Origin: Tribonema minus
Lineage: Eukaryota > Sar > Xanthophyceae > Tribonematales > Tribonemataceae
NCBI GenBank assembly: GCA_017506865.1
Contig: JAFCMP010000053.1
Coordinates: 310,001-374,000, forward strand
Direction: 5' to 3'
Length of the DNA: 64,000 nt
Position numbers and translations under genes: made by a program. Within the stretch, counting starts at the first letter, position 1, and the number at the start of each line of letters is the position of its first letter. A model generated the notes under the pieces. The model did no database searches. It saw only the letters and a program-made list of their open reading frames with translations, and was not told where the DNA came from. Below are positions 1 through 64,000 of this stretch, piece after piece.

Positions 1-230
1 GCTGCCTGCACCGCTCACTATCACATCCGCACAGCTCACCGCCGCGCTATCTTCACAGGCTCAGCTAAACCGCGCCCCACCTACTTTTTACCGCACGCGG
101 CTGCTGCCCTGCAGCGGCCCGCGTCCGCCTGCGTGCGTCCGCGCTGCTCACTGCCACCGTTTGCGCGGCTCCGCACTGAGTTGCTGCTTGCTGCCACGCG
201 CTGTGCTGATGGCTGCTGCTGCGCGCGCAG
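1..230. other. intron sequence at window edge
   Basis: GC-rich sequence that ends in a GCGCGCGCAG acceptor at 221-230, immediately before the first readable ankyrin exon. I read it as the 3' part of an intron whose upstream exon is outside the window. No separate gene is supported. Confidence 0.5.
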
Positions 231-1613
231 TGGCTCGCATCATCCGGCGTGAGCACGCCCGCGGTGCCCAGGGCGCTGGAGGAGGCTGCGAAGGGCGGGC
301 ACGTCGCCGCGGTGCACTGGCTGGTCACGCAGGTACGTACAGTAGGTATGATGCTTCAATAGTCGGAGCTGGTGATGCTCAGGTCGCGCAGGGGACAGGC
401 ACGTCGCCGCGGTGCACTGGCTGGTCTCGCAGGTGCGCACGTACAGTAGGTATGATGCCTCAATATTTGGAGCTGATGATGCTCAGCTCGCGAAGGTGGC
501 GGGCACGTCGCCGCGGTGCACTGGCTGGTCACGCAGGTGCGCAAGGTATTGTGCCGCAGCAGTCGGAGTCAGTGATGCTCAATTCGTGAAGGGCGGGCAC
601 GTCGCTGCTGTGCACTGGCTGGTCACACAGGTATGTACGGTATTGTGCTGCAGCAGTCGGAGTCGGTGATGCGCAGCTCGGCGCACTGGCTGGTCACGCA
701 GGTGCGGTATTGTGCTGCAGCAGTCGGAGTCGGTGATGCTCAGCTTGTGAAGGGCGGGCACGTCGCCGCGGCAGTACGTATGATGAGGTATGTACAGTAG
801 GTACGATGCCTCAGCAGTCTGGTGTCAGCGTGTCAGCCCGTGGCCTGTATTGGCCTGGCAGTGCAGGGGGGGGGGGGGGGGGGGGGGACGATCAACAGGT
901 ATCAGGTATGGCACGGCAGGAGGGCCGACGAGCGTTTTTATCAGCGCTCAGCGACCTGCAGCTTCCCGCCAGTGCGACAGCGCAGCGGCGCGCAGCAAGG
1001 CGTGCCCCTGCACCCCCTCTGACTGCAATGCCAGGGGTTTGAGCGCCTCTGCCCGCCCATACCCTTTGCTCACCGCCCAGATCGTCACGCATCCCGCTCG
1101 CCACATGGGCACGCCAACAGCACAGCGCCACCGCTCACGTGCCCCCCCCCCCCCCCCCCCTCAACCTCCCGCACGTCTGCGCAATCCTCACCTTATCCCC
1201 CCTGCTCCTCTGATCCCTCATGTCTCGTCCCCTTGTCACCCTCTCACTCGCCTTCTAATCCACCCCCCTCTCACTCCCCTTCCAATCCCTCCCCGTCGCC
1301 CCGCCCCCCCCCATGCCCCCAATCGCAGGGCTGCATCCCCGACGCCGCCGCCATCAGCGCCGCCGCCGCCGCCGGCCACACAGCCGTTGTCCACAAGCTG
1401 CTGCTGCTCGCGGGCCCCACAGCAGCGCTCTCCCTCGGCAGCGCGGCGCTCGCGGCGGCGTGCGGCGCAGGGCAGCTGGAGCTCGCGCGCTGGCTGTGGG
1501 GCGTCGGCGGCGCGGCGCTGGATGCTGCGTCAGCTCTCAATGCCGCGCTCGGCCGCGGCCAGTGGGAGGCCGCGCGGTTCCTGCTGCTGCGCGCGGGGGA
1601 GGCGCTGGCGTAG
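231..1613 (+). CDS. ankyrin-repeat-like protein, 3' end of gene (two exons)
   Basis: Two exons read as ankyrin-type helices. Exon A, 231-332 (34 codons), follows a GCGCGCGCAG acceptor, contains KGGHVAAVHWLV, and ends ACGCAG|gtacgt. Exon B, 1329-1613 (94 codons plus TAG), follows ATCGCAG and contains AAAGHTAVVHKLL, GAGQLELARWLW and GRGQWEAARFLLL, each the GH-x-x-V/A-x-x-L core of an ankyrin repeat. Both junctions are phase 0. The family binds proteins through stacked helix-turn-helix units; partner and location are unknown here. The 5' end is missing, so total length is unknown. Copies of the exon A donor edge fill the intron, and copies of the exon B end follow the stop. The link between the two exons rests on matching phase and shared fold, not on a known homologue. 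Confidence 0.65.
391..772 (+). repeat. five echoes of ankyrin exon A donor edge
   Basis: The end of exon A (GGGCACGTCGCCGCGGTGCA onward, through the donor) recurs at about 391-432, 492-537, 588-630, 682-701 and 748-772, spaced roughly 70-100 bp. Most keep a CAG|GT donor. The intervening intron text (AGTCGGAGTCGGTGATGCTCAG) is repeated too, so whole exon-tail-plus-intron units were duplicated. The later copies are the most truncated. Confidence 0.85.
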
Positions 1614-1659
1614 CGCAGCGGGGGGCGGCGGCGGCGGAGGCGGCGAGGCGCGGCGGCAG

Positions 1660-2016
1660 CAGTGCTCGATGTTGCGTCAGCGCTCAGCGCTGCGCTCCGC
1701 CGCGGCCAGTGGGAGGCCGCGCGCTTCCTGCTGCTACGCGCGAGGAGGCGCTGGCGTAGTGCAGTGGGGGCGGCGGCGGCGGAGGCGCACAACGCGGTAG
1801 CAGCAGTGCTCAACGCCGTGTCAGCGCTCAACGCCGCGCTCGACCGCGGCCAGCGGGAGGCCGCGCGCTTCCTGTTGCTGCGCGGACGGGAGGCGCTGGC
1901 GTAGCGCAGCGGGGGCGGCGGCGGCAGAGGCGCGGAACGCGGTGGCAGCAGTGCTCGACGCTGCGGCAGGGCTCAGCAACGCGTGTGCTGCTGCGCGCGA
2001 GGGAGGCGCTGGCGTA
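1660..2016 (+). repeat. three echoes of ankyrin terminal exon including stop codon
   Basis: The last 96 bases of exon B, ending GAGGCGCTGGCGTAG, recur at about 1664-1759, 1808-1903 and 1952-2016 with a period near 147 bp. Each keeps the TAG. Because the duplicated piece is a terminal exon, this is the one clear echo array without a splice donor. An alternative is that the array is a degenerate ankyrin-coding stretch, but the conserved stops argue against translation through it. Confidence 0.75.
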
Positions 2017-3619
2017 GGCGCGCGCACTCACGGTGCGGCGGCGGAGGTAGCGGACGCGGCAGCAGCAGTGCGCGACGCTGCGGCGGAGCTCAGCGGCGGC
2101 GTGCGCTGCCGGCGGCGGGGGCAAGGAGGAGCGATTCGAGGCGCTGCTGCTGCGGTGCGGGGCAGCTACCGGGCTGCGCGTGTGTGCACGCTCGCAGCGG
2201 CAGCGGTCGCGCGGCGCTGCGTGGGCACTGGTGGCGGGCATGCGCATGACCCGTAGCGCTCCCTGGCGTACTAGAAGAGCGTTGTGGCACCAAACTTCAA
2301 GTGACGGCGTGGCGCGCGTGCGCAGCGCTCAGCACTGGGGGGGGTTGAGGTGTGTCCCCCATATTGTCATGGAGGCCGCGGTGCCGCGCATCGCATCAGT
2401 GCTCGAGCACTGAAAACAGTCAGACGGCTGGTTGTGTGCTGGTGTTGTAGAAGGAAGGGAGTCGCCTGGGTGGAGGTGTGAAACCCGACAAACAGCAGCA
2501 GTGCTCGGGGCAGCAGCTGCAGCGCGGGGGGGGGGGGGAGTTCAGGTTTGTGGCTCCTCCTCCCCACTACTTGAGCATGGCAGCTGCAGTCGACAACATG
2601 GACACTGAACGAAGGATCAACAAATTTACCGTAGCGAATGTACGGCAACTGTTACTTAGAGCGGTAGTGCGCAGGCACAGGCGGCGCCTTCTGCTCGCGC
2701 TTGGTACGCGCGACGGCAGGCACGTGAAGCAGCGGAGCGGCATCAGCAGCGCAGCGGCGGCAGCGGCAGCGGCACCAGCGGCGGCGGCGCAGCTCGACGG
2801 CTGCGGCTTATACCTACCCGTATACGCCGCGCGCTCTGTCAAGCGGCAGCGCCCCGCAGCATCACCCGCGCACGCGGGCAACAGGCAACGTTGCCCGCTG
2901 CGGCGGTTGAGCGCTGAGTTGCGCGCCCGCCACACACGCGCGCGCATTTCCGTTCCCAACTGTATTCTTAGGCCCCCGTGGTGGCGCAGTGGCCGCATGT
3001 GCACGTCAGGAGTTTGTGTGAGAATGCCCGCTTCACAGGGGTGTGCTGTACTTGACGGGCGCGCGCCGGTTCCCTGCCCGCAGCCTGTGCGCTCTCTGCA
3101 CAGCTTGCGGCGCGGATGGGCACCGGGGGCGCGTTGCCTTGAGAGGGGGTACACAATCACTGGCGTTGCACATTTGCTGTGCAATACGTCAGAGTGTGCC
3201 GACCGCAGACTGTTTTGACAATGAACGATGCGTGCATAACTTCGCGCCCTCTGCGGATTGTTTGCTGCTCAGCTGACTGTCGGTGTCTATCATGACCCCG
3301 TCCGATTGCATCGGGTTGAGCCAACGGCAGGTTTCTGTGCAAGGCAGGCATGTGTTGCCGACACTGTTGCGAGGACATGACCACACATGCACAGAGACTT
3401 AGCAGGGGGGTTGCTGGGAAGGTTCTCCGGGAGTGCCTTCCGGGAACTGTCCCGGGAGTGTGTGTATTCCACTTGGTTGCATCAGGCAAAAACATACCGA
3501 CGACCAGCGATCGTCACGGATAGCGGCCGACAAAGCACTGCACAGCTGTCTATTTCCTCCCACACGCCGACCGAAACGCGCCAGCGTCTCCAGCACGGCC
3601 GCAAACACAGAAATCGAAG
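2017..3619. other. intergenic, no gene supported
   Basis: GC-rich sequence with a G-run at 2526-2537 and Ala-type triplet repeats around 2750-2790. Long overlapping frames exist on both strands (+2478-3218 and -2567-3184), but neither shows a recognisable domain, and open frames on both strands are expected at this base composition. The last few hundred bases are presumably promoter and 5' UTR of the gene starting at 3620. Confidence 0.4.
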
Positions 3620-5265
3620 ATGCTCTCCCTCGCACAGGCAACGCGTTCCGCTTACCTGCGCCCGTGCGGCAGGCTGGTCGTCGTGCGGAACCTGGAATCC
3701 CTCTACAGCAAGTCCAAATACCCTCCCACAGACGAGGATCCGAAGGGAAAAGGCCCGCCAGCTGCAGGAGAAGCTCTCCCGGCAGCCGCTGAAGGTGCGC
3801 TGACTGACCTGACAAAGAGCGTTCTGTCTTGCCCAGAACATCACCGTCTTCGCTCTTCCCTCTCGCCTGCCCATGAAGCCAGATTTGTGATTGCATATCC
3901 AGCTTGCAGCAATGCTGCTGCACTGACGCGCAAGATGTGGTGATTCGGTCAGATTAATTTGAAGATCTGTCGCAACGTGAAAATGGTCGTGAATATGCCA
4001 AAGTCAATTTCTCGTGCTGCTGCTTCGTCAGGTGGTGCGAATGCCTCTCACAGGCCCTCCGCCGAGAGCGAAGAGAGGGACTCATTTTCCAAGGCAGCCA
4101 TTAGCGGCGGAGTCGAGGGTGCCCGCGAGAAGGTGGAGAAGGGAACAGCACCAGGGGAGAAGGCGAAGGAGAAAGTGAGCTCTTTTCTTGCCCTCCGCTG
4201 CCCCAGCCAGCGCATACTTCGAAACATACTACTATGAAACGGGGCGCGGAAAGCTAAAGCGCGGTGCCTCGACTGCCTCTCGCAGCAGCGCACGTCACTG
4301 TTGGTAAAATTGAAGATACGGATGTCTTTCTAAGAGATGCCCTGGCACTCAGCCATGCACTGACGCTGACCCTAGCTACACGCGCATCAGTAGTGCACAC
4401 AGGCAAAGCCGCACGGTGTACAGGATACAGATGCGAGTTCCCGCTTCGGCTCGGAGCTGCATTCCTGACGCGCAAACGCAAACGCAATAAATGCAGCGCT
4501 AATTACGCAACACAGCCTTTGAGCCTGCACACAACAAAGCATATCTGTTGGTCCGCAGGCTGAGTGCATAGGCATGCGTCGCTACATGGTGACTGCGGTT
4601 GCGCTGCAGCATCGCAAGTGGAGATGCTCTCAGAACTGTGTACACAACGTGAAAAAGGAATGTTCAGGAGAGAACGGCAGTGTGCTGTTCGTGTTTGGGA
4701 AGGTGCTGATGTCAGGTGCCACAAGGGCCTGGGCCTGCATCTCTGCAAACAATGCAACTTTTTATTCGTGCTAGCTTTGGGTGTGAAAAAGCCCAGATGG
4801 TCAGTCCAGCTTGAAATCAGATGCTACATGACACTCATCAGAAGCACACGTGTGAATATGTTCCGTTGTTCAGTACTCCCAAGCAACGACGACCAAGCTC
4901 TTACATTGTGCTCCTGAAACACTGTTTATAAATACTTTTGAATGAGTCCACTTGAATCTAAGGCATGTTGTGTCTGCTGCTGCATTGTCACTCAGATGGA
5001 GGGACAACACAGCCATCCACACTGCGGAGATCGCCATGTACGGCAGCAACAATGGTGTACAAGCTCTTGCCTCGTTTTCCTGAAACGCTTGCGTCAATGA
5101 GTTCACTTGTAACCAGGGCATGTTGACTGCTGTTGCTTTGTCGCTCAGATGGAGGACATGATCAACTCGGCCATCCACACTGTGGAGAAGGCCATGCCAG
5201 GCAGCAACAAGGACCTGCCAGACAGGGACTTTACCCCGCCGCCGCCCAAGAAGGGCAGCAGTTGA
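3620..5265 (+). CDS. small protein, possibly organelle-targeted, function unknown (three exons)
   Basis: Exons: 3620-3794 (donor GAAG|gtgcgc), 4032-4174 (acceptor CGTCAG, donor AAA|gtgagc) and 5149-5265 (acceptor GCTCAG, stop TGA). The phases are 1 then 0 and close exactly, giving 144 residues. The N-terminus has Arg, Ser, Ala and Leu and few acids (MLSLAQATRSAYLRPCGR), as in mitochondrial or plastid transit peptides. The middle is hydrophilic and Lys/Glu-rich (GAREKVEKGTAPGEKAKEK), and the C-terminus ends FTPPPPKKGSS. I do not recognise the family. Phase agreement supports the gene model, but no homologue does, and an extra small exon in the second intron cannot be excluded. The gene is tail-to-tail with the flavoprotein gene. 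Confidence 0.55.
4966..5055 (+). repeat. echo of the terminal exon acceptor edge (gene at 3620-5265)
   Basis: The sequence leading into exon 3 and its first ~55 bases are duplicated upstream: GTCACTCAGATGGAGGGACA here against GTCGCTCAGATGGAGGACAT at the real site (5141-5160). The copy keeps the AG acceptor but has lost the reading frame. Confidence 0.75.
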
Positions 5266-6346
5266 AGAAGTGGAGCGTTACACTTGAAGAAGTGGAGCGC
5301 CACGCTTTACCATCAACAGGGCGCGAGCGATCTGACGTGGGGTCTCAGGCGCGATGTTTGTGATATACTTAGTCCCCAGTACCTACCCTCCCCAGCTTCC
5401 CGCGAGGTACTGAGGAGTGACTATATCGATCTGCGCAACCGTAGTGACAGGGCTCGCGCGAGCGTGCTGCTGTAGAGCGGTGCTGCGTACGCACCCCCCG
5501 CATGCATGTCTGTAGACGGGTGTCGAGACGAATGCAGGTGCAATTCCGCGCTTGCATTTGGGGGGGCGGGGAGAGCGAAGGATGCAGGGGCACACACGGG
5601 AGCATCTCAAGTGATGCCACCAGACGTGCCATCGTGGACAGCCTTGCCGATTATGCGGTTTCATGATGTATAAGACTGGAGCTCTGGGCCACGCCGTCAG
5701 CGCTGCACGTGCAGCCAGCCGCAACATACATGTGCAGATTGCGGGCGCAAAGTTCAAGAAGCGGCGACATGCCGTGTGACCATGAGCGCCAATACAAACG
5801 CCAGCGCGCGCATTCGCGCGCTATCGCTTGGTGCCTTTGAGGCTCTGCCACATGGCGGGTTGTCTGATGGGGGGAAATAACACACCACTGCATGAGAATC
5901 AATATACGTCTGGCGTGCACAGATTGCGTGCGTCACAACTACAAGTTCGTAATGCGGTGCGTCACGCTTTGAAGACGCTGCGATGCAGTCATGACATTTG
6001 TCATTATTGGTCAAGTATGTGCCGTGCGGTAGGCCACGTGTGCGGGGGGGCATGCGCTGCAAGCCGCGGACTTTTGCTGCACAATGCCCGCCAAGCAGGA
6101 GTCGACGCGTCTGTGTCAGACGCAAATCCTCGCCATGGCTTCTGAAGAAGCAGGGCAACGCCCCCTTTGCTGCATGCACTTTGCGCAGTGTGTCTCCTGC
6201 GCATGCCATTCGGACGCGCTGTCAGAAACTTGCATGCAGCTGCCCAATGCAATTTCGTTTGAGCGTCACGCTGTGCGCCGCAATTGTCAGCTCGGCGGCG
6301 CTCCTGCCTTTGGATGCGCAACCGTACTCGTGCTTGCAGTGATGCG
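5266..6346. other. tail-to-tail intergenic region
   Basis: Lies between the stop of the small plus-strand gene and the stop of the minus-strand flavoprotein gene, so it should hold both 3' UTRs and terminators. I see no coding exon or clear poly(A) signal. Overlapping frames on both strands lack any domain. Confidence 0.45.
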
Positions 6347-9300
6347 TCATGTGTCCACTGCTTGTGCCTGCGGCTGCGGTTGTCGTTGCTGAGCGCTGCT
6401 ACCAATGGCGTGCCCCGCGCACCAGCTCGTCGTCCATGCGCTCTGGAAGTTGTACCTGCACAACATTAAGAGAGCACAACATTAGGAGAGGCGTGCGCAG
6501 TCGGGGCAGGAAGGAAGACGTTCGGCAATGAGTGTTGGGCCTCTGGCGAAACAAGGCAGGCAGTCTTCACTGTGCCATAGCACACCTGCCACATCACTGT
6601 GTCCATGATTCACGTGCGTGCAGAATGTGAGATGTATCGTCTATCAGTGTCTACTCAGGAGTTGCTGCAGCGCGTTTGAACGCACGCGTGGCAGCATGCA
6701 CGCATCATATGACAGCATGCATGCATCATACGACAACCCATATTCTGTCTGGGTTGCTCGCGCGCCCCGCCCACCCATGACTGCAGCACGCCTTAACGTG
6801 CTCCCAGCAAACGGGAAACAGGCCTTACAGAGCGTGGAGCTCTTGCGGAGAGTCTGGGAGAGGCAGCAGCATGTGCAGCACTCCTTACATGGCACGTGCC
6901 AGCAAGGGCACTCCTTATATGGCAACGACCAGCAAGATAGGGGCACACGGCTGCAGCAGAGCTATAATAGCAGTGCGCTCCGTATGCTCGCCCGGTGCTG
7001 CCATTTGACGTCGATGCATAATGAGATGTGTAGTCTCTGCTCAACAGTTGCTGCCACGCGCTCAAAGGCAGCACGCGTGCATCATGGCGATTCATTGTCT
7101 GTCTGAGTGCCACCCATGCCTGCAACATCTCGACATGCCCTGGGCACTAAACAATGTTCTGTAAACTCACCCCCCGGTGATGCCGTCGACATCCACAATT
7201 TCGCCCGCAAAGTGCAGCCCTGGGACGGTCCTGCTCTCCATCGTCTGCGCCACGCATCGCGCCACACACAGCGCACGCGTGCATGATTAGGCACCAGAGG
7301 TCAGTGACAGCGAGTGATGACCGCAATGGTCGCTCACTCCGGCGGGCGCTACAGGGTGTTGACATACATGGGGGATGAAGAGAGCTGAACTTCTACGTGA
7401 AATTGCAGCACACGGCAACGGCAGTGCCAGATTTCAGTTCACTGGAATGCGATTCGGGCAGCACGTGCTGCAGGTCGCCTTGGCCGGGACGCCCAGTGCA
7501 GCTTGATCTGGATGTGCCATGCGCAACCTCACAACCAAGTCCTTGGGGAAACAGGGAGAAGGACATGCAGGTCTGCTACAGGTCACAAATCCGGCCTTTA
7601 CCCTTACCGCAACCTTACAGTCACCGCCGCTGGTAGATGGCGTTAGGATGAGGCCTAACCCTAGAGTTAGGTTTAGGCTCTAGCCTCAATCCTACTCCTA
7701 GACCCAGCCGCGGGAAGGCACAAGTCCTAACCATAACCCTCAAGAACAGGTGCAAATCGAAGGGGGTCCGGTCATAAACATGCGCTTCATCTGCGCCGCC
7801 TGACATGCGCAAACGCCATCGCGGAGGCGCAAAGGCAAATCACGTTCGTGCTGTTGCTCTCGAGGGCGACGCTTCCGTGCGCCGCGAGCGAGAGGCCAGG
7901 CGTCGAGCTGCGCGCTGCGGCCCAATTTGCGCCATGCGACGCGCGCAATCAAGCGACCGGATTCTTTGAAACAGCAGTGAATATGTAAAACACATCACCT
8001 TCATGTCGAGGTTCTCGAGGGCGGCGCCGCTGCACGTCGCGAATGAGGGCTGCGTGCCCTAATCCTAATTCTAACCCTAACCCTGACCCTCACCCTAATT
8101 GCGCGCTGCGCCCCAATCTGCGCTATGTAACACGTGCGATCAAGCGATTGAGCTTCTGAAGACAGTGGACAAATATGAAAGCACATCACCTTCATGTCGA
8201 GGTTCTCGAGGGCGACGCCGCCGCACGTCACGAATATGGGGCCGCGTGCCCTAATCCTAACCCTAACCGCGCGCTGCGCCCCAATCTACGCTACTGTACG
8301 CGACACGCGCAATTAAACGATTGGATTGTTGGAACAGCGGATGAATATGAAGAACGCATCACCTTCATGTCGAGGTTCTCGAGGGCGACGCCGCCGCACA
8401 TCGCAAATGAGGGGCTGCATGCCCTAATCCTAAGGCTAACCCTAACCCTAACCCTAACCCTAACATCTAACCGCGCGCTGCGCCCCAACCCAATCTGCAC
8501 TTTCAACCGATCGGATTCTTGCGACAGCGGACAAACATGAAAAAAGGATCAACTTCATGTCGAGGTTCTCAAGGGCGACGCCGCCGCACGTCGCGAATGA
8601 GGGGCCGCATGCCCTTATCCTGACCCTAACCCTACCCCTGACCGCGGCCTGCGCCCCAATCTGCGCTACGCGCCTCACGCGCTCGGAATCTCGGGACAGC
8701 GGATAAACATGAAAAACGCATCACCTTCATGTCGAGGTTCTCAAGGGCGACGCCGCCGCACGTGACGAACTCGTCCTTGAACGCGCCCTTGCCCACAACG
8801 CTCAGGTCGCACGCCGCCGCGTTACGCGCGAGCGCGGCGAGCTTGGCATTGCTGCAGCCGCCCCACTGCTCGTTGTCGCCTGCGCGCCAGTTGCGTCATG
8901 TAGCAAGACTCAAGAATCATTCATTCATTCATGCATTCATTCACTGAAGTACTGATGCGTTCATGCATTGATCGTGCCTACGACGCTCAGGTCGCACGCC
9001 GCCGCGTTGTACGCGAGCGCGGACAGCTTGGCATTGCCGCAGCCGCTCCACTGCTCGTTGTCGCCTGCGCGCCAGTTGCGTCATGTAGCAAGACTCAATC
9101 ACCATTCAATCATTCATTCATTCATTCATTCATTTGGTTACTGAAGCTTTCATGCATCGACCTTGCCCCATGACGCTCAGGTCGCACGCAGGCGCGTTAC
9201 GCGCGAGCGCGGCGAGCTTGGCGTTGCTGCAGCCGCCCCACCGCTCAATATCGCCTGCGTGCAAGTCGCGTTGTGTACCAAGACTCAATAATCATTCATG

Positions 9301-34255: not shown

Positions 34256-34286
<31 letters not shown>

Positions 34287-39777: not shown

Positions 39778-40692
39778 TCACCGCGGCGCGTCGAGCGGCA
39801 CGCTCTCGTCGTGCCCCGCGGCGCCGTGCGCGTGGTACACGTCCTCGTACGCGGCGGGGAAGCACTTGGGCAGCGGCGCGCCGTCCGCCTCTGCGCACAC
39901 GGGCGCCGCGACGAAGCCGTCGTCACCCATCGAGTGGCGCTCCAGCGCCGCGCGCAGGCGCTCGAGCAGCTCGTCCTTGCGCCCCGCCACCGGCAGGCCG
40001 CGCGCGCTGAGCTCCCGCTTGAGCTCCTCCACTTTGAGGCCGCGCAGCGCGGCGAAGGCGGCGGCGGGGTCGCGGTTGTCACGCCACCAGGGGGCGTAGT
40101 CCCCTAGCGTGTCCAGCCCCTGGTCCTGCACCTCCTGCAGGTACCACGGGACGCCGTTCGCGTCGCGCCGCCCCCCGCCCCCCCCCCGCCCGCCCCGCGG
40201 CAGCAGCACGGCGCCGCTCTGCCAGGCCTTGACGGCGGCGTTGGCGCTGCCGGCTCCCCTGCCGCCCGCTCCGCCCCTGCCACCGCCTCCTCCGCCCCGC
40301 CCTTGCCGATCCCCGGATCTGTCGATGACCTCGTTGGCGAACCGCCTGCCGCCATCTTGCTGTAGCTGCTGCTGCTGTGGTCGGGGGCGCTGGCCTCTGC
40401 CGCCCACAGTGCCTCTGTCTGACCGGGGAGGAGGTGGCGGAGGCCCCAGCATGGGCCCTCGCACTGGCATGACCTCGAAGTCGTCATCGTCACCAGGAGC
40501 AGGCCTCCTTTTGCTGCTGTAGAGCGTCAGCGCTGCAGCTCTGTGGTGCTGATGTTCAAGTGCCAGGTGATGATGGGCAGCCTGGCTGCTGCTGCTGCTA
40601 CTGCATGGCGGTGGTGGCGCAAAAGACTGTGCAGTTGGAGCGCTGCCGAGTAGCAAGCCCAGAGCCAGTACTTTCCTTCCAGGGGCTTCCAT
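39778..40692 (-). CDS. SAP-domain protein with secretory/plastid-type leader, single exon, 304 aa
   Basis: Single 305-codon frame, ATG at 40692, stop at 39780-39778. Residues 1-22 are a signal peptide (charged start, then VLALGLLLGSAPTAQ), followed directly by SFAPPPP: the AQ-S-F-A-P junction resembles the ASAFAP cleavage motif of red secondary-plastid proteins. Then come a Pro/Gln/Gly-rich linker, an RGG-like basic Gly block (about 131-176), VPWYLQEVQDQ and APWWRDN (181-206), and a SAP fold (about 215-252: LKVEELKRELSARGLPVAGR then KDELLERL). SAP domains bind nucleic acid, so a plastid nucleoid or RNA-binding role is plausible but inferred. It is intronless with no echoes. Alternative: a secreted protein if the FAP match is fortuitous. 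Confidence 0.8.
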   Translation of the reverse strand: MEAPGRKVLALGLLLGSAPTAQSFAPPPPCSSSSSSQAAHHHLALEHQHHRAAALTLYSSKRRPAPGDDDDFEVMPVRGPMLGPPPPPPRSDRGTVGGRGQRPRPQQQQLQQDGGRRFANEVIDRSGDRQGRGGGGGGRGGAGGRGAGSANAAVKAWQSGAVLLPRGGRGGGGGRRDANGVPWYLQEVQDQGLDTLGDYAPWWRDNRDPAAAFAALRGLKVEELKRELSARGLPVAGRKDELLERLRAALERHSMGDDGFVAAPVCAEADGAPLPKCFPAAYEDVYHAHGAAGHDESVPLDAPR

Positions 40693-41970: not shown

Positions 41971-42003
<33 letters not shown>

Positions 42004-42009
42004 TCGTCA

Positions 42010-42052
<43 letters not shown>

Positions 42053-56900: not shown

Positions 56901-59900
56901 CTAAATGTGCGGGAAGTGGGGGGGGGGGGAGGCGGGGGGGGGGGGGGGCTCTGAGGGACCTGAATCCGATGCAGCACAGTTTGCTTTTGCAGCGTGATCA
57001 CAAAACGTGCGGGACACGGCAGGGGAGGGGGGGGAGGGGGGGGGGGGGGGAGGGGGCACCAGATCTGAACGCAATGCAGCACGGTTCGCTGCCGCAGCGT
57101 GATGACGAAACGTGTGGGAAACGGGGGGGGGGGGGCTTCAGGGGCACAGAGTCAACTGCAATTCAGCACTAGTTGCTTAGCAGCATGATCACAAGAGTGA
57201 GTCAAGTTGATGAGATGCGGGGCCCATTCTGAGCATCGCTGCCGGAGCGTTGCGACGACATGACATGAAGACGGGGCCAGCAAGGCAAATTCTGCCACGA
57301 GGTGTTGCGGGCTCAGTTGTGGTCGCCCCGGCACACGCGCACGTGCGCGCCGCAATCAATACCGCACCACCACAGCGCTGATCTCGCACGCATCCAACAG
57401 GAGGTGAGTGTGATGTATTTGAACCGTCAGCTCAGAATTGAAAGAGTTGTGCGCAACGTCTTTTCAGAGCTGCTAAGGAATTTACTCCTTGCGCGCCCCC
57501 TGCGTCACAGCCGGCGATGCCTCAGGCCTCCCGGGAGCAAGTGTGCCACCGTGCGGAGCAACAGTGAATCAGCTCGAGGCCCCCGTTGCATGTCTATCAG
57601 GCTGCAAGGGAGCATGGCTCAGCATGTGTCACTCTTCAGGCCATTCCAAAGGAAGCACCCTGATACTCCTGCCAGTAGAAATTTTTTGCCGCCAGCTCAT
57701 CTGCGAGCGCATCCTCCTCTGATGATGATCAACACCTAGTGAGCACCCCAGACACAGCATTTTTCCAGCGACGGTAGAAAACTTCTTGTCATCAGAAGAT
57801 TCCAGCATTTTTTCACCTGCAGGAAATTTCTCGCCGCCAGATCGGCGAGGTGCGCCTGCAGCGTCTCCTCCTCCATGTCTATCGGGAACACGGTCGAGAG
57901 GAGCTCAAAGCTGAACCACTCCCCCAGCACGCTCGCCACCTGCGCAGCGCGCACACGTCAAGGGGGCCGCCGGGGGTTGTGAGAGTGTATACATGGTGCA
58001 TACTTGAAGGTATATACACTTGAGAGTATATAGTACTTCCTGGCACCGGCAGAATGCAGTAGACCGCGACAACAAGAAACTGCGACGATGCTCACCACAA
58101 CGGCTACATGTACAGTATTGGTTGTGTTGACAACAGTGGCGTCCGATACCCTAACTCCACTCATGAAGTCTAACTATGGTCATAATTCCAATGCTTGTGT
58201 CCCCCGGTACTACCCGCGTGACCAACTGCTGCACGAGTCACTCACTGACTCGCTAAAGGACAGCATGACTCACTAGCTCGCTTCAGACATGTTCGCCCAC
58301 ATCAAGGTCACATGTACTGTAATATAGGGAGACAGTACTTCCGGACAAGTGTAGTGCGTGAATGCAGTCTGCTCGTGGTCGAACCCTAACCCTACACTCC
58401 GATCATAACGCTTGTGCCCTCCGGTACAATCCGCATGACCGACTGCTGCACGACTCGCTCACTGATTCGCTAAAGGACAGCATGACTCACGAGCTCGCTT
58501 CAGACATGTTCACCCACACAAAGGCCGCATGTGCTTGTTGATAATGTTTGGAAAGACGATGTTTTTGAATAAGCGCAATGCATGCGTGTGGTCTGCTCAT
58601 TGTGTTTTAGAATTCGGGTTAGTACTTACATAGGTTTACTGTAGCGTTTTATGGTTTAGGGTAAGGGTTAAGGTGACTTAGCATGGCTGCCGTATTCAAG
58701 TTTGACCTGGGGTTGAAGTAGGGTGAAGGCTGGAATCAGGGTCACGGTTAGGGTAGGGCAGCGAATCAACGCGTGCCAAACCGGAGCAAGCACCCGAACT
58801 TGGTGGTGTTAGGGCAGAGGTACTCCACGAAGTGGTCGGCAATGCGCATTGAGACACTTTTGAGGTGTCCACAAAGGCACTCGTTGATTCTGGTTGCAAG
58901 TCCACGGACATCCACCGTCCGGGCTTCTTCGCGCCCTGAGCGAGGGTTAGCAAAAAGTACTTCATACACACATACCTTGAGGACGAGGGCCAGGGACCTA
59001 ACTCTAACACTAACCCTAACCTGACCCTAACCATAACCAAACCTAAGAGTCAATGCATGCCATACTGGAACAAGAACCCAGACAAGCTAGGGCTGGGGTT
59101 AGGACTACTTCATACATACATACCTTGAGGACGAGGGCCAGGGACGGGTCCAGGGTATCTATTCTAGCGGCGACAATCTCCTGCACCGCTATTGGCAGGA
59201 TGGGGCCGTTGGAGGTGCCCTGCGTGAGCGAGAGGGCGCACCGTTGGGGTTAGGGTTATGGTTAGGGTCAGAGGAAATGCCGCTGCAAGCCTGTGCAGCA
59301 TCAGTGGAGCGGTAGTGTATTTCGCAAGAGGAACCGCCGCAGCGACGCCGCGCAGCATTCGCACAGATGCGCCGCACCAAGAGCGCGAGCGGTAATGATT
59401 TCTTTAATGATTCTGACAGCCCAGGCTCCTGCATTGGATGTGAAGCACCTGCGGCACCCCGCAGGCTCCGCAGAGACGCACATCATCGAGGTCTTCCGCC
59501 AGTGCAGCGCGGCCGGCTCATGCGAATTCTCTCACTGCGGAGAGTCGCACCTGTGAAGTTGCGCGGCATGGCACGGTATACCTGCCCCAGACACCATGGA
59601 GAGTCACGCCCGTAGAGTTTTGCGCTGCGAGGCACGCCTCAGACACTACGAGTGTTGCACATTTGAAGTTTGTGCAGCGTGGCTCTGTCCATTCCGCTGG
59701 GACGACTTGCCCCCCCAGACTTAGGGTTAGGGTTAGGGTTAGGGTTACAGGGTTAGGGTTAGGGTTAGGGTTACGGCGAGGTACAGCACCCATGTGAATA
59801 GTTGAGCACGCATGGCCTAGCCCGGCGTTGTGTGGCGCGCGCGTCCCTTACCTCACACACCGCGGAGAGTCATGCATTGAAGTTTGGGCAGCGCGGCACG

Positions 59901-62900
59901 CTCCCCCCCGCTACTCGTGCCCGCACCCCCAAGACACGCGGCGTTTTGGCAAGTCGCCCCCTTCGTTGTTGTACCTTTGAAAACTTGTGGGAGAGTATCA
60001 CCTTTGAAGTCTTGCGCAGCGTGGCGTGGTCCTTCTGGCTCTACAGCTTCCAGCTGAATGTCGCTGGTGAGTGGCACCTTTGAGGCTTCGCGCAGCGGAG
60101 AGTCTCACCTTTGAAGTCTTGTGCAGCGTGGCGCGGTACTTCTGGCTGGACGTCATTCTGGATGACGAGCGCGTGTTGCTGGTGAGTCGCACCCTTGAAG
60201 TTGTGCGCAGCGGGAGAGTCACACCTTTGAAGTTCTGCGCAGCGGAGAGTCTCACCTTGAAAGTCTTGCGAAGCGTTGCGCGGTCCTTCTGGCTGGACGT
60301 CTTCTGGATGACGAGCGTGTCGCTGGTGAGGAGGTTCGTGCACATCTCGCGCACGAAGAACGGGTTGCCGCTGCACGTTGAGGTTATCAACTTCCGCAGC
60401 TCCGCGTCCAGCTCGTCCACGCCCATGTAGCCGCACGCCATTTCGATCTGAGCGATGCCACGGAAGCAGCGAAAAAGTGTGCAACTTGCGCGCGTGAGGA
60501 CGGGACGAGGTGGAGTGTGCGCTATGCATTGCGCGGCGTATCTCAGGTGTAGGGTTATAATTGGGTGATAGGGTTGCAGTTGAGTAAAGCCGCACGTGAC
60601 AGCGATCTGAGCAGCGCTGCACGGAACGAACAGAGAACTGGCGCGGATCAACATATGTGAGGGTGCTGCGGTGAAACTCTGTCTAGAGAGCGCGGCGAGC
60701 GCGCGTGAGGACGGGACGAGGTAGAGTGTGCGCTACGTGTTGGGTGGCGAATCTCGGGGTTTGGGATTGGGCCGAACATTATACGTTGAAACAAGTCAAA
60801 TTAGGGGTTAAAAGCAGGGGCAGGCCTTGGGCTAGGGCTCGCCTACGCGTCCTTGCTCAGCGAGGTGAGCCGCACGCACGACTTGAGCGCATGCGACGTG
60901 AGCTCAGGGCGAGGGCAACCTGTGCAATATTAACTAGCAGTAGTCATGTCAAAATCAGGAATAGAAAAGGTCTTCGCCGCTGCACTCCCCTGCGCCTTTT
61001 TGTTCAGTGAAGTGAGATGCAGTTGTTGTAGGGAAATAGGACCAGGGCTTGACCTAAAGTTAGGGTTCGCCTCTGTCGCCTCGTTCTCAATTTGTAGCCA
61101 GTTACGGCGCACTCAAGTTACAAGTGCGATCCACAATCATCAGCGATTCTACGGCTTTCGAGTACGGTACGTTACGTTATGACGACGATTCACGACTTGA
61201 ATCTTCAATAAGTGTCAGCGCTCGCTTCGGCCTCCTCGCTCAGCGACGTCAGCTGCACGCGCGACATGAGCTCGGGCGCCTCGCGCAGCGCCGCATACCA
61301 GCGACGACCCTAGACATAGGGTTAAGTGTCAGCGCTCACCTCCGCCTCCTCGTTCAACGACGTCAGCTGCACGCGCGACATGAGCTCGGGCGCCTCGCGC
61401 AGCGCCGCATACCAGCGACAACCCTAGACATAGGGTTAAGTGTCAGCGCTCACCTCCGCCTCCTCGCTCAGCGACGTCAGCTGCACGCGCGACATGAGCT
61501 CGGGGCCTCGCGCAGTACCAGGACCAGCGACAACCCTAGACATAGGGTTGAGTGTCAGCGCTCACCTCGGCCTCCTCGCTCAGCGACGTCAGCTGCACGC
61601 GCGACATGAGCTCGGGCGCCTCGCGCAGCGCCGCGTACCAGCGCAACCCTAGACATAGGGTTAAGTGTCAGCGCTCACCTCCGCCTCCTCGCTGAGCGAC
61701 GTCAGCTGCACGCGCGACATGAGCTCGGGCGCCTCGCGCAGCGCCGCATACCAGCAACGACCCTAGACATAGGGTTAAGTGTCAGCGCTCACCTCCGCCT
61801 CCTCGCTCAGCGACGTCAGCTGCACACGCGACATGAGCTCGGGTGCCTCGCGCAGTACCAGGACCGGCGACAACCCTAGACATAGGGTTAAGTGTCAGCG
61901 CTCACCTCCGCCTCCTCGCTCAGCGATGTCAGCTGCATGCGCGACATGAGCTCGGGCGCCTCGCGCAGCGCCGCGTGCCAGGACAAGCGACAACCCTAGA
62001 CATAGGGTATAAGTGTCAGCGCTCACCTCCGCCTCCTCGCTGAGCGATGTCAGCTGCACGCGTGACATGAGCTCCGGCGCCTCGCGCAGCGCCGCATACC
62101 AGCGCCGCTGGTCCTGAAGGAACGCCGCCTCCGGGCGCGTCGCGAAGATGAAGGCGATGCCCATGGGGGTCTTCCAGCCTGGGCTGCCGCGTGAGCTGAG
62201 CATCGCTGACAGCTGGGGGGGGGGGGGGGGGGGGGGGGCAAAGTGTGGAGCGGGGGCAAGGTTTAGGGTTAGCTTGAGAGGCGGGGCATGAGAGAGGCTT
62301 GGGGGGACCAACCTTGACCCTAGCCTAACAACAACTGCAATTATGTAATGCCCAAAAGCAATTATGCGATGCTCAAAAGCGGCGTGGGGGGGGGGGGGCA
62401 TGCATGGAGTGAGGGCAAGGGTCAGGGTAGGCTTCAGAGGTGGCGCGTGAGAGAGGCTCGGGGCACGAACCCTAACACTTACCCTAACAAAATCTGCAGC
62501 CCAAAAGGTCAGCTGAATATCAGCCCTAATTCTAGTCTGCGGAGCTGTGGGAGCACATGCTGCAACACCAGCGCGGCGATCGAAGTGAACAGTGCTGGGA
62601 AATGGGCTGAGAGAGCAAGACGCGTCCCTGGAGGGCGACGATCCTGCGCTAGATTGAAAAAACGAGACTGTTTGCAGGTGGGCAGGCGGACATCAGGAGG
62701 GTATCGGACATCATAGACTCTGAGGACACGCAGCAACAACACAATTGCACTCTGCAGCGCCCTGCCGAGCAGCGGCGGCGGCGGCAGCGGCATCAGCAGC
62801 GGAACCGCAGCGGCAGTAGCAGCGCCAGTGCTCACCGTACTACAGTTACAGTTTGTGTAACTGTTTTCACCGGCACTCACCACGTCCAGCGACCCCATGT

Positions 62901-62937
62901 CCGCCCAGTGGAGGTCGTCGACGAACACCACGAGCGC
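41488..62937 (-). CDS. AAA/STAND ATPase with helical-repeat tail, ADCY10-like; 3' part, at least 22 exons, ~1,082 aa
   Basis: Exons: 62937-62881, 62212-62027, 60447-60256, 59219-59124, 57939-57817, 56862-56572, 55932-55888 (least sure), 55287-55234, 54483-54298, 53828-53724, 52792-52682, 51219-51158, 50432-50270, 49342-49187, 48798-c.48700 (3' end unclear), 47742-47560, 46770-46702, 45691-45563, 44113-43820, 43064-42945, 42191-41906, 41729-41488 (TAG). Nearly all junctions are phase 0. Exon 1 has a Walker B strand (VVFVDDLHWAD), exon 3 GNPFFVREM, exon 5 ASVLGEWFSFELL, exon 6 RFSHVHMRNTAYSMLL with RLHYRVAAAM: the order seen in STAND ATPase modules of soluble adenylyl cyclases and related bacterial cyclases/kinases. 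Later exons read as TPR-like helices (ASNYFGEALLVVKRLP), then a poly-Asp/Glu tail. Walker A and any cyclase domain would lie upstream, outside the window, so cyclase activity is not shown. An AAA-linked kinase is the main alternative. Confidence 0.85.
41965..42055 (-). repeat. GAC/GAT trinucleotide tract coding poly-Asp
   Basis: The plus strand reads (GTC/ATC)n; on the gene strand it codes an uninterrupted run of more than 20 Asp in the penultimate exon of the ATPase gene, followed by Ser/Glu/Asp mix. The last exon has a second, shorter Asp run (8 Asp). Confidence 0.9.
42195..42265. repeat. TTAGGG-type tract next to an acceptor
   Basis: GGGTTAGGGTTAGCAACGGG and further TTAGGG variants begin eight bases beyond the acceptor of ATPase exon 42191-41906 on the intron side. 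Confidence 0.8.
42420..42830 (-). repeat. three echoes of the donor edge of ATPase exon 43064-42945
   Basis: GATAGGTGTCCAGCAGCGCT then CCATGAGCTTGGACGCGCGG occurs at 42768-42815; a shorter copy lies at 42607-42652, preceded by GTTAGGGTTAGGGGTTAGGG; a remnant (GCGGTCCACGCCATTCTACA) is at 42439. All three continue into CATTCTACATA and a TATATACTT-rich block. Period is about 165 bp. Confidence 0.85.
43150..43335 (-). repeat. echo of the acceptor edge of ATPase exon 43064-42945
   Basis: TGCTCCGTCGTCGCCCGCAC, CATCAGCCCGTGG and the CATCGCCGCGACATCATCAT block at 43160-43228 copy 43025-43090. A (GCA)n remnant follows at 43275-43295. This exon has echoes on both sides. Confidence 0.85.
44785..45540 (-). 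repeat. three echoes of ATPase exon 45691-45563 donor edge in ~225-bp units
   Basis: CTGGTGGTACGGCAGCAGCG with GCTGGTACATGATGCACTGC recurs at about 45351-45430; shorter copies are at 45186-45215 and 44785-44815. Each is followed by GACAGACTTGTCGGACGCCA or a related block, then GCACCGGCACTGTTGACAC and a CTCTAGGT/CTCTAAGT remnant. The donors in these copies are GTATGT or GTACTT, unlike the telomere-type donor of the real exon. Confidence 0.85.
45060..45185. repeat. dispersed element C, copy 1
   Basis: GCATCGAGACACTTT, a central GTGCAGCAAGCTTGGACGCC-like part and TTCCGCGCCCTGAGCGAG match 58848-58945 (GCATTGAGACACTTT, then TTCGCGCCCTGAGCGAG) in another intron of the same gene. Both copies end 30-40 bp before an exon-donor edge or echo. 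Confidence 0.55.
45540..45562 (-). promoter_or_regulatory. 5' splice site made of TTAGGG repeat
   Basis: The donor of exon 45691-45563 reads CCAG|GTTAGGGTTAGGGTTAGG on the gene strand: three telomere-type units start exactly at the exon boundary and supply the GT. Echo copies of the same boundary have ordinary donors, so the telomere tract replaced or was inserted at the original site. Confidence 0.8.
46165..46200. repeat. (CCCTAA)5 interstitial telomere-type tract
   Basis: Five near-perfect CCCTAA units on the plus strand in an intron of the ATPase gene. Confidence 0.9.
46553..46672 (+). repeat. dispersed element B, copy in the ATPase gene
   Basis: Matches 26363-26462 of the CAX intron along its length: GACTCGTGGCCAGTGACAGC, TGGTGGAAGGCACTTGCGGC, TTGTCACCTA, CGACGATCTTTTGG and TTCATTTCC. 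It ends about 30 bp before the exon donor at 46701. Confidence 0.75.
46790..46985 (-). repeat. two echoes of ATPase exon 46770-46702 acceptor edge
   Basis: GCGCTGCAGCGCGCACGAGG with CGACAGCGGATCATC (46828) and GTCTGCAGCGCGCATGGGGC with the same follow-on (46918) copy GCCTGCAGCGCGCACGGGGC at 46769. ACTTCAAGTGTGTACTTCAAG occurs between units. Confidence 0.85.
47875..48372 (-). repeat. four echoes of ATPase exon 47742-47560 acceptor edge
   Basis: CCCGCCGCAGCGGCAGCATC and ACCTGCAGCAG-like text (47879, 48028, 48177, 48342) duplicates the real CCCCGCCGCAGCGGCAGCAT at 47720. Units of about 150 bp share GGACGCCGTCTGATCGGGCA and GCATGGGYTGCTGA. Confidence 0.9.
48485..48700 (-). repeat. exon-edge echo and dispersed element A, copy 2
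   Basis: GTTTTTGTGCCAGACTGCGG with GTTGAGCAGCTCGGC occurs at 48500 and again at the real exon edge at 48686. The block between, read on the minus strand (48690-48535), is the second copy of dispersed element A (GAGAGTCTGGGAGAGGCAGC), which otherwise lies in the flavoprotein intron near 6815-6960. Confidence 0.7.
49490..49800 (-). repeat. two echoes of ATPase exon 49342-49187 acceptor edge
   Basis: GAGGACCTGCGGCGGGCGGC to GCGTCAGCGATGCATGTCAA (49500-49595) and GGGTAGCGCTGGAATTGTGG to GCGTCAGCGGTGCACTTCAA (49693-49795) copy 49330-49390. A (GGC)n tract has expanded inside both copies. Confidence 0.8.
49920..50225 (-). repeat. three echoes of ATPase exon 50432-50270 donor edge
   Basis: GCACCCACCTGGTTCATCCA with GTTCTGGTGGCTCGTGTCGT recurs at 50158-50215; more diverged copies are at 49928-49995 and 50045-50110. 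Repeated GAGTTCACRCGS text separates them. Period is about 110 bp. Confidence 0.88.
50433..50575. repeat. (CGG)n tract forming the polypyrimidine region of an ATPase acceptor
   Basis: About 140 bp of CGG/CGA triplets. On the gene strand it reads (CCG)n directly into CCGCAG, the acceptor of exon 50432-50270. It is likely polymorphic and able to form G-quadruplex or hairpin. Confidence 0.85.
51716..52680. repeat. long degenerate CCCTAA array with two exon echoes
   Basis: Nearly 1 kb of CCCTAA variants (CCTAACCCTAACCCTAACCC at 51739, then CCCTGACCC, CCTAAACCT, CCCAACCCC) in one ATPase intron. It contains two donor-edge echoes of exon 52792-52682: 52262-52292 (CACCTACCAGCACATTGTCG) and 52535-52597 (CTCACCAGCACGTTGTCGGG), each running straight into telomere-type text. 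Confidence 0.85.
53865..53990 (-). repeat. (AGC)n tract and echo of ATPase exon 53828-53724 acceptor edge
   Basis: AGCAGCAGCAGCAACAGCAG (53867-53905) is followed by CATGCATAAATTGCAGCAGC and GGGGCCAGCGGCAGCGGGCA (53921-53980), a copy of 53814-53868. Confidence 0.85.
54065..54270 (-). repeat. two echoes of ATPase exon 54483-54298 donor edge
   Basis: ACGCACCTGACACCCCTGCA, CAGCAGCCCTATCTCCAGCA and CATCACGCCAGGGGCTCTCC at 54184-54265 is a close copy of 54292-54370. A decayed copy at 54070-54125 keeps CACCTGGCACCTCTGCC. ACTTCAAGTACTACTTCAAC separates the units. Confidence 0.9.
55158..55215. repeat. (CCCTAA)n tract
   Basis: About eight CCCTAA-type units immediately on the intron side of the donor of ATPase exon 55287-55234. 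Confidence 0.9.
55300..55690. repeat. intron duplication with telomere-type ends and an exon-edge remnant
   Basis: AAGAGGCTCAGAGCGGTGTT (55356) and AAGAGGCTCAGAGCCGTGTT (55622) head two units that both end CATCAAG..GCTA..CCCTAACCCTA. Between them ATGACCTGCACGCGCACGGG (55426) is an acceptor-edge echo of exon 55287-55234, and a TTGAAGTTGTTGATTGAC doublet lies at 55507-55540. Confidence 0.75.
56090..56555 (-). repeat. two echoes of ATPase exon 56862-56572 donor edge within a TTAGGG array
   Basis: GCTCACCTCGAGCCAGTGGT through GACGTCGTGCCGGTGCCGCC (56437-56505) copies 56566-56640 and then runs into TAGATATAGGGTTAGG. A decayed copy is at 56110-56165 (ACTCGAGCCAGTCGTGCTCG). 56305-56430 is a TTAGGG/TCAGGG array of about 20 units, and 56513-56550 holds six more. 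Confidence 0.9.
56875..57190. repeat. tandem units with long G/C homopolymers upstream of an ATPase acceptor
   Basis: Three units share GCAGCACRGTTYGCT, GCAGCGTGATSACAAAACGT and GCGGGACACGGG-type text followed by G-runs (C-runs on the gene strand). The unit nearest the exon provides the C-tract of acceptor 56863. A fourth, short unit is at 57163-57195. Confidence 0.8.
57655..57725 (-). repeat. echo of ATPase exon 57939-57817 donor edge
   Basis: GTAGAAATTTTTTGCCGCCA with GCTCATCTGCGAGCGCATCC and TCCTCTGATG resembles 57830-57880 (GGAAATTTCTCGCCGCCAGA). Confidence 0.65.
58130..58545. repeat. two-copy ~290-bp intron duplication in the ATPase gene
   Basis: GCTTGTGTCCCCCGGTACTA (58193), CGACTCGCTAAAGGACAGCATG-like text and CTCGCTTCAGACATGTTCGC (58278) recur at 58410-58515 (GCTTGTGCCCTCCGGTACAA, CTCGCTTCAGACATGTTCAC). 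The second copy is introduced by CCCTAACCCTA at 58384. No exon sequence is evident. Confidence 0.8.
58845..59040 (-). repeat. dispersed element C, copy 2, and telomere-ended exon echo
   Basis: 58848-58945 matches 45068-45165 (GAGACACTTT, TTCGCGCCCTGAGCGAG). It is followed at 58969-58998 by a donor-edge echo of exon 59219-59124 (ACATACCTTGAGGACGAGGG, CCAGGGAC), which breaks directly into CTAACTCTAACACTAACCC. Confidence 0.75.
59535..60235 (-). repeat. about eight echoes of ATPase exon 60447-60256 donor edge
   Basis: GGAGAGTCTCACCTTTGAAG, TCTTGTGCAGCGTGGCGCGG and TTCTGGCTGGACGTC-type text recurs at about 59537, 59598, 59645, 59867, 59994, 60070, 60100 and 60217. The best copy, 60100-60180, covers about 80 coding bases. 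A TTAGGG array (59723-59773, about eight units) interrupts the series. Confidence 0.85.
61205..62011 (-). repeat. seven-copy array of ATPase exon 62212-62027 donor edge with inverted telomere half-repeats
   Basis: Units start near 61207, 61325, 61439, 61552, 61665, 61777 and 61890; the eighth, at 62012, is the real exon. Each has the TGTCAGCGCTCACCTCCGCC donor edge and about 90 coding bases, breaks at ATACCAGCG or a nearby point, and continues AACCCTAGACATAGGGTT. Period is 113-122 bp and copies are about 95% alike, the youngest-looking array in the window. Confidence 0.95.
62216..62240. repeat. G/C homopolymer at an ATPase acceptor
   Basis: A G-run of about 23 bases on the plus strand; on the gene strand it is a C-run ending directly in CCAG, the acceptor of exon 62212-62027. 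It serves as the polypyrimidine tract. Confidence 0.85.
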
Positions 62938-63009
62938 CTGCGAGCGATGCGCGCAGGGTTTGAGGTTAGGTTCAAGGATTGACTTGCGTATGGGTAAAGG
63001 GTGAAGACG

Positions 63010-63320
63010 ATCATGCGGCGGTACACGGCGGAGTTAGGTTTAGGATAAGGGTTAGATTTAAGATTAGGGTCAGGGTTAAGTTAGTATCAGGGTAATACCA
63101 TCGCACTCCCCACCCTAGGGTGGTGTGTGTACCATGCTGAGCGTGCGCAATGTCACCTGCGGCGCCGGCACGGCTACAGAGTACGCTGCTGGTGATCGCA
63201 CGATGCTACCTCAAGTGCTGATTACTGGGTGGCTCAATGTGCTCAAGCAGCAGCGCAGCGGCTTCCGTAGGCTCTAGGGGGTTATGTTTAGGGTTAGGGT
63301 TAGGGTTAGGGTTAGGGTTC
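63010..63320. repeat. degenerate and perfect TTAGGG tracts
   Basis: 63030-63090 holds decayed TTAGGTTTAGG/AGGGTCAGGG units; 63283-63320 holds five near-perfect TTAGGG units in an intron of the ATPase gene. Confidence 0.85.
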
Positions 63321-63534
63321 GCTTCCAGCTCTGTACACTGGTCCTGTGCGCAAGCACAGGCGTGCGAGCAGCAGCGGTACTTACAGCAGACTGCCATACA
63401 GAAAACAGGCTCAGTGGGCTCTGTCCAGAAATGCAGGACGCACAACACGGCCAGAAGGTGGTTCAACGTGCGGCCGCTGCTGCAAGCAGTAACAGCGGCA
63501 GGCGCGGCGCTGTTGAACCAAAGTGCAACTTCAA

Positions 63535-64000
63535 CTATAGTTTTCAACACAGCGGCAGCGTTCGCCTTGCGTGCCTTGACAGCGGGGCGGCAGCGGCGTG
63601 CAGCAGCGCAAGGCACAGCTTGTACAGCACCAAATTGGAACCTTAAACAGATGCTTCAACATAGCACCAGCAGCGCTCACCTTGTGCGCCTGGACGGCTG
63701 CGGCGGCGGCGGCGTGCAGCAGCGCGAGGCACAGCTTGCGCAGCACCAAACTGGAACTTCAACTAGATACTTCAAACAGCAGCAGCGCTCACCTTGCGTG
63801 CCTTGACGGCAGCGGCGGCGGCGTGCAGCAGCGCAAGGGCACGACTGCTGCAATATGGAACTTCAACTGGATACTTCAACATAGCGGCAGCGCTCACCTT
63901 GCGCGCCTTGACGGCGGCGGCGGTGGCGACATGCAGAGGGTACAACTGCTGCAGCACCACGCTAAAACTTCAACTAGATACTTCAACACAACAGCAGCGC
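63535..64000 (-). repeat. echo array of the next upstream ATPase exon, running off the window
   Basis: Four units of about 115 bp (near 63555, 63668, 63783, 63889) have a sense GTGAGCGCTG-type donor after a short frame ending AAAVKARK, then ATTTGGTGCTG/CAGTTGTACC-like coding text. A fifth copy starts at 63990. The 63958-63900 unit has an open frame (VVLQQLYPLHVATAAAVKAR) and could be the real exon, but the array continues past the end, so the genuine exon is probably outside. Confidence 0.7.

Follow-up and report, generated by a model that had tools for sequence, protein, structure and literature searches.

Introduction

Local duplications that cross the border between an exon and an intron are already on record in vertebrates and in potato (PMC2671141, PMC4974935), and local repeats, many of them crossing such borders, run throughout the introns of a 64-kb stretch of the genome of the alga Tribonema minus, the subject of this paper. 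In ten vertebrates, duplications attributed to break repair have donors at most 5 kb away, a mean length of 162 bp (up to 619 bp) and a frequency of 0.08-0.65 per Mb of transposable-element sequence, copies within 50 bp being left out; the copied pieces include intron splice sites, and one case is in opposite orientation (Pace et al. 2009, PMC2671141). Fill-in at breaks with complementary 3' overhangs yields direct duplications (Schimmel et al. 2021, PMC8355091), a single recent tandem duplication across an intron-exon border made a new intron in a potato RdRp gene (Ma et al. 2016, PMC4974935), and direct repeats of 4-30 bp at intron borders have been read as traces of break repair (Rogers and Bendich 2025, PMC11782384). 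Titles and abstract openings of open-licence literature, among the matches listed, included no exon-edge arrays in an alga.

The stretch analysed here (the window) comprises positions 310001-374000 of contig JAFCMP010000053.1, which ends 2 kb past it; the assembly has 158 Mb in 554 contigs, with a G+C content of about 58% over the sequence examined. Like the vertebrate duplications, those of the window are proximal copies of similar size with splice sites among the copied pieces, the likeness being one of size, distance and content; unlike them, they amount to 61 families in 64 kb with inverted pairs nearly absent, the vertebrate survey being narrower and different in method (PMC2671141). Fill-in at overhangs likewise gives direct duplications, there of break-end DNA, but these are tandem and shorter than 100 bp (PMC8355091), whereas 63 of our 82 two-copy families are spaced and some families form arrays. 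As in potato RdRp, the unit can cross an intron-exon border, but in place of one intron-making event there are 143 families in 41 sequences, mostly decayed (PMC4974935). Direct repeats close to splice sites recall those at intron borders (PMC11782384), yet the units here are tens to hundreds of bases long and many lie off borders. Taking the evidence as a whole, we hypothesize that local direct duplication blind to exon borders, purged in exons and decaying in introns, is the probable though by no means certain explanation.

Results

Local repeats are direct and mostly decayed

The window was compared with 20 random 10-kb loci (L003-L022) and 20 light-harvesting loci (L023-L042), making 41 sequences. 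The light-harvesting family has at least 92 genome matches, and one match is closest, among solved structures, to fucoxanthin chlorophyll a/c proteins, a resemblance that would mark the organism as a red-lineage alga of the chlorophyll a/c type. Local repeats were defined by a lag of 40-1200 bp and a score of at least 40 bits, simple repeats excluded. Close to genes their orientation is almost exclusively direct: over all 41 sequences there are 323 direct pairs and 4 inverted ones, and the window holds 161 direct pairs, covering 31.4% of it, and no inverted pair. Two kinds of shuffle gave 0 pairs, direct or inverted. The window is a hot region for local repeats; same-strand local repeats cover 8.6% of the random loci taken together, and the 10 kb adjoining the window (L068) contains 4 pairs with 10% cover.

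Identity lies between 70 and 95% in 287 of the 323 direct pairs, which are therefore too diverged to be assembly errors; the 16 pairs above 95% are not cleared in this way. In two contig pairs (C489 and C70, C296 and C490) a small contig repeats part of a larger one over about 4.9 kb at 99.9-100% identity and is likely to be an uncollapsed assembly duplicate; as a test of allelic copy-number change the two pairs were uninformative, with no arrays and few short local pairs. The 82 two-copy families have a median length of 86 bp and a median lag of 158 bp. All but four of the window families lie within the spans of its five intron-containing genes (Table 1). With the 80-bp probes described below, inverted matches came once from a border, 6 times from introns and 9 times from DNA far from coding segments, and just 1 probe overall matched another locus above threshold.

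Repeats at exon edges

The codon log-odds used to score coding segments came from 40 exon pieces of light-harvesting genes together with three segments of the window, namely one CAX exon and the two intronless genes; the scores of these three are partly circular because they served as training set. Segments of at least 22 bits numbered 139 over the window, random and light-harvesting loci, and none appeared at 25 bits in shuffles of the window and random loci. Splice models, trained only near the ends of high-scoring coding segments, learned canonical signals (donor CAG/GTGAGY, acceptor GCAG/G, with the slash at the border) and at p 0.7 called donors for 99 and acceptors for 97 of the 139 segments; a self-trained gene finder was abandoned because it drifted into false micro-exons. 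The window gene models are ab initio and partly curated by eye, so that all exon positions are predictions, and Pfam scans covered 23001-33002 on the forward strand and 5001-14902 and 54001-63902 on the reverse strand only.

At least one edge lies inside a duplicated unit in 26 of the 38 modelled exons (CAX 9/9, flavoprotein 4/8, cyclase-like 10/16, acidic 1/3, ankyrin-like 2/2). A first-pass annotation of this DNA had reported that most exons of the five genes are accompanied by same-orientation copies of their own edges, which we call echoes, and in this it was right: the repeats are real, and its examples at a donor edge (23777-24330) and an acceptor edge (31440-31930) fall in families at 23677-24350 and at 31142-31984 and 31657-32054, respectively. 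Both edges are echoed in CAX exon 29237-29380 and in flavoprotein exons 8725-8851 and 11746-11890. The two intronless genes, which it had described as free of echoes, are overlapped by no family; a 27-bp repeat of 2.3 copies that Tandem Repeats Finder places at 37330-37389, inside the gene at 36479-37948, is below the lag limit. Its further statement, that every duplicated unit extends across an exon-intron border, does not stand: of the 57 families within the spans of the five genes, 24 touch no border, and 39 of the 72 borders carry no family.

A copy spanning the centre of an 80-bp probe, simple-repeat probes having been dropped before counting, was found for 20/40 border probes in the window, 15/80 in random loci and 9/75 in light-harvesting loci, so that echoes are present elsewhere in the genome but weaker. 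In the same order, the counts were 10/21, 8/37 and 6/41 for donors, 10/19, 7/43 and 3/34 for acceptors, 2/19, 3/59 and 1/36 for exon middles (6/114 overall), and 41/152, 27/274 and 12/153 at 250-600 bp from a border; far from coding segments the count was 20/598.

Repeat cover is level with distance from the border

At an exon edge one of the two copies is exon sequence kept by selection, and the pair therefore stays recognisable for longer, which would make such edges look special. When modelled exons were replaced by N, so that conserved exon copies could not prolong detection, cover in window introns was 0.23 at 1-10 bp from the border, 0.29 at 10-20, 0.33 at 20-30, 0.36 at 40-60, 0.40 at 100-150, 0.37 at 200-300, 0.36 at 600-900 and 0.55 at 900-2000 bp, the low values at 1-20 bp arising because the mask cuts alignments there. 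In 16 introns of random loci bounded by both donor and acceptor, it was 0.12 at 1-20 bp, 0.21 at 20-60, 0.24-0.25 at 60-200, 0.19 at 200-300, 0.28-0.31 at 300-700 and 0.03 beyond 700 bp (4 introns). When introns of random loci were not bounded, cover on the donor side was 0.26-0.27 at 40-200 bp but dropped to 0.09-0.16 past 300 bp, because the measurement there runs out of the intron, and on the acceptor side it was uneven (0.08-0.19). Older masked families reached the border about as often as expected (7/29 vs 7.7). The level masked cover is our main ground for doubting that the border is a target.

Echoes lie in introns and decay

No echo copy lies on the exon side: all 67 alignments (donor 45/45, acceptor 22/22) place it on the intron side of a border that is already present. 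The decay of their splice sites is close to neutral: splice dinucleotides are kept in 32/36 donor and 14/20 acceptor echoes, where exon-side decay predicts 29.6 and 16.2. Of the exon-side indels, 31 of 36 are not multiples of three, the alignments not being independent. The idea that echo splice sites are conserved because they are used was rejected, the retention of GT and AG being about what exon-side decay predicts, and there is no firm sign that echo splice sites are used.

These echoes could instead be the scars of intron birth, the introns having arisen by tandem duplication of exon segments or from introner elements; the unit does join exon end, splice site and intron, and the potato intron arose by tandem duplication across a border (PMC4974935). 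The echo units already hold adjoining intron sequence, however, and sit on the intron side of a border that exists, while in searches of the genome four of five tested units, among them the stretch 16277-16463, matched only themselves, the fifth containing a dispersed element; there is thus no introner-like dispersal among those four, and we give intron birth scarcely any credence.

Spacers and dispersed elements

Copies are separated by more than 10 bp in the 63 spaced families of the 82, and in 14 of the 15 that are at least 88% alike; in arrays such as 61209-62104 the copies are head to tail. Copies lie within 5 kb of each other and are no longer than about 600 bp, as in repair-mediated proximal duplication, the search having covered lags of 40-1200 bp. 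In 16 of 28 cases shuffled versions of the spacer resemble the outer flanks as closely as the spacer itself does.

The direct repeats might also be target-site duplications, very long ones, left by short mobile elements that had inserted close to exon edges. In line with this, the pair at 48493-48720 brackets a dispersed SINE-like element, and direct repeats of 32-67 bp, with a T-rich start, adjoin the presumed ends of 4 of 22 copies of this element. Because four of the five repeat-spacer-repeat stretches match only themselves, mobile elements are not a general cause, and spacers match elsewhere in the sequence examined no more often (25/137) than controls do (33/137); we regard the explanation as very improbable.

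The SINE-like element itself is an estimated 170 bp long, with copies at 48530-48681 and 6808-6963 in the window and in L048-L067, and at least 40 genome matches including itself. The repeats adjoining its ends are presumably unusually long target-site duplications. A direct repeat of at least 32 bp (score at least 35) occurs within about 140 bp in 9 of 22 copies; for mismatched flanks the 95th percentile of the score is 21 and the 99th is 79, the latter probably high because some copies share flanks. A second dispersed element, of about 75 bp, occurs on both strands at many loci (L021:5307-5387 and 5919-5991, for example), and 26415-26462 and 27173-27219 of the window, counted as one local family, are apparently parts of it. 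When an entire 10-kb locus was searched against the genome, a short dispersed element dominated the matches.

Interstitial telomere-like tracts (TTAGGG/CCCTAA) occur at 29 places in the window (56312-56400 and 59721-59773 among them). The modelled introns, 38 kb in all, contain 26 of these, the 13.4 kb of intergenic DNA 1 and gene flanks 2; the 200 kb of random loci hold 22 and shuffles 0. The heptamer TTGAAGT, often as AAGTTGAAGTT, occurs 207 times in the 264 kb of the window and L003-L022, 3 of them in coding segments, and its 9-mer forms are about 14-64 times as frequent as expected to first order. Near repeats (n=71) it lies a median of 12 bp from a copy end, against 23 bp for random positions, and within 10 bp in 46% of cases against 27%; it may possibly be a break site or filler.

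Table 1. Modelled genes, repeat families and negative cases in the window (positions are counted from its first base)
Feature	Position	Strand	Remarks
CAX gene		+	9 modelled exons; ab initio, curated
Flavoprotein gene, HI0933-like		-	8 modelled exons; ab initio, curated
Cyclase-like long gene		-	16 modelled exons; name is our own reading, its one basis a weak AAA_16 match
Acidic gene		-	3 modelled exons; ab initio, curated
Ankyrin-like gene		+	2 modelled exons; name is our own reading
Donor-edge copies of CAX exon 23535-23742, in next intron	23677-24350	+	Family spans donor after 23742
Donor-edge array of CAX exon 27585-27698	27635-28162	+	Period about 107 bp, 4.8 copies
Acceptor-edge copies upstream of CAX exon 29237-29380	28387-29277	+	
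Donor-edge copies of CAX exon 29237-29380	29309-29733	+	Two downstream
Family upstream of acceptor of CAX exon starting 32018	31142-31984	+	
Acceptor-edge copies of CAX exon 32018-32101	31657-32054	+	
Families of flavoprotein exon 8725-8851, one per edge	7909-8769 (donor side), 8784-9504 (acceptor side)	-	
Donor-edge array of flavoprotein exon 11746-11890	10704-11804	-	A gene finder requiring GT sets seven copies downstream
Donor-edge array of cyclase-like exon 62027-62212	61208-62107	-	114-bp unit, 7.8 copies, about 90% matches
Spaced pair: 3' 53 bp of exon 16411-16625 plus 7 bp of intron	16277-16463	-	Copy 67 bp off, 95% alike
Intron-only spaced pair, touching no modelled border	58190-58535		129 bp, 87% alike; 88-bp spacer with telomere-like tract
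43-bp direct repeat around SINE-like element 48530-48681	48493-48720		98% alike
Families beyond the five gene spans (4/61)	4941-5210, 18690-18913, 20785-20928, 38984-39164		
Intronless gene without local repeat family	36479-37948	+	Negative case
Intronless gene without local repeat family	39778-40692	-	Negative case

Discussion

A border-blind origin of the repeats would work as follows. A mutational process would keep producing same-orientation local duplications of tens to a few hundred bases, regardless of exon borders. Selection would eliminate those within exons; where the unit lies across an exon edge, the spliceosome would still use the exon-joined copy, and the surplus copy would fall into the intron and decay, edge-overlapping duplications surviving since that surplus copy is spliced out; units inside introns would decay unseen. 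Some duplications may expand to arrays, probably via unequal exchange between direct repeats. Because orientation is one-sided, capture that draws on either strand is disfavoured, while fill-in at staggered ends, slippage and unequal exchange are favoured. Among these, staggered double-strand breaks repaired by fill-in and end joining, at times leaving filler between the copies, are a likelier primary event than polymerase slippage or unequal exchange.

Several observations weigh against this account, some of them bearing on the nature of the pairs themselves. Four of the 15 most alike two-copy pairs are doubtful, being short, simple or dispersed; 12 of 28 spacers exceed 20 shuffles in likeness to the outer flanks, some weakly; telomere-like tracts, tried as filler between copies, are not preferentially flanked by direct repeats (13/55 cases against 22% of controls); far from genes orientation is less one-sided, with 30 direct and 9 inverted matches from 598 probes; and in the wider donor signal of echoes mismatches run at 0.04-0.05, where the exon side shows 0.10, which hints at retention, although the counts of splice dinucleotides do not bear this out. 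Other observations concern borders. Unmasked families touch a border in 33 of 57 cases against 18 for random placement summed over genes (CAX 12/18 vs 5.8, P 0.0015; cyclase-like 11/21 vs 6.7, P 0.03; flavoprotein 6/13 vs 3.4, P 0.07; the two small genes non-significant), although when borders are counted CAX alone deviates (P 0.005; other genes P 0.18 or more). The excess is greatest in the most alike pairs (29/53 vs 10.9), which are not independent; family counts supersede this enrichment by identity, since pairs of one array count many times. With detection made equal by masking, young families (at least 85% alike) still reach the border in 10 of 21 cases against 4.6 expected (P 0.006), despite a level cover profile of the same families. 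A modest preference for borders, up to about twofold, is possible.

Both excesses would fit breakage and re-copying targeted at borders and tied to splicing or R-loops, as the first-pass annotation had favoured, or to nucleosome borders. Against this stand the masked cover, level with distance in the window and in the 16 bounded introns alike, and the 24 families off borders. Light-harvesting genes are presumed to be highly expressed, and fewer of their border probes than of the window's find echoes; transcription or R-loops are therefore not favoured as the driver, and we consider border targeting decidedly unlikely.

The remaining difficulty is the richness of introns over intergenic DNA, which a process blind to genes does not predict. 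Unmasked cover in the window is 0.41 in modelled introns, which agrees with the earlier suggestion that the duplications lengthen introns, and 0.054 in 13.4 kb of intergenic DNA; in random loci it is about 0.22 in bounded introns and about 0.11 in opposite-strand gaps shorter than 2.5 kb. The contrast is strong in the window and about twofold elsewhere, where introns are few. It would follow if duplication took place mainly in introns or transcribed DNA rather than at borders as such, for example by transcription-coupled nicking and then fill-in, with which the distribution of telomere-like tracts in the window and the excess of border and near-intron probes over far probes in random loci also agree. 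In random loci, however, all same-strand gaps together have a cover of 0.112, hardly above the 0.109 of divergent and the 0.079 of convergent gaps. Moreover, of the 16 bounded introns 7 contain a repeat and 9 do not, and light-harvesting introns are repeat-poor; on balance we think this origin unlikely. Both the repeat density and the intron-intergenic contrast are nonetheless unusual. It is conceivable, though we lean against it, that they reflect an unusually active, direct-only duplication that is mild between genes but strong in certain introns, has produced some 40% of the intron sequence in whole genes, has a modest (at most twofold) preference for splice borders and takes transcribed or spliced DNA as its substrate.

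The window presents a case of introns visibly growing through local duplication. It also carries a warning: a conserved exon copy keeps border-crossing duplications in view for longer, so that apparent border hot spots need an exon-masked control. To a gene finder, moreover, echo copies resemble genuine small exons, which makes them a hazard for annotation. If the contrast between introns and intergenic DNA holds genome-wide, it would point to repair tied to transcription and would make intron growth directly testable.

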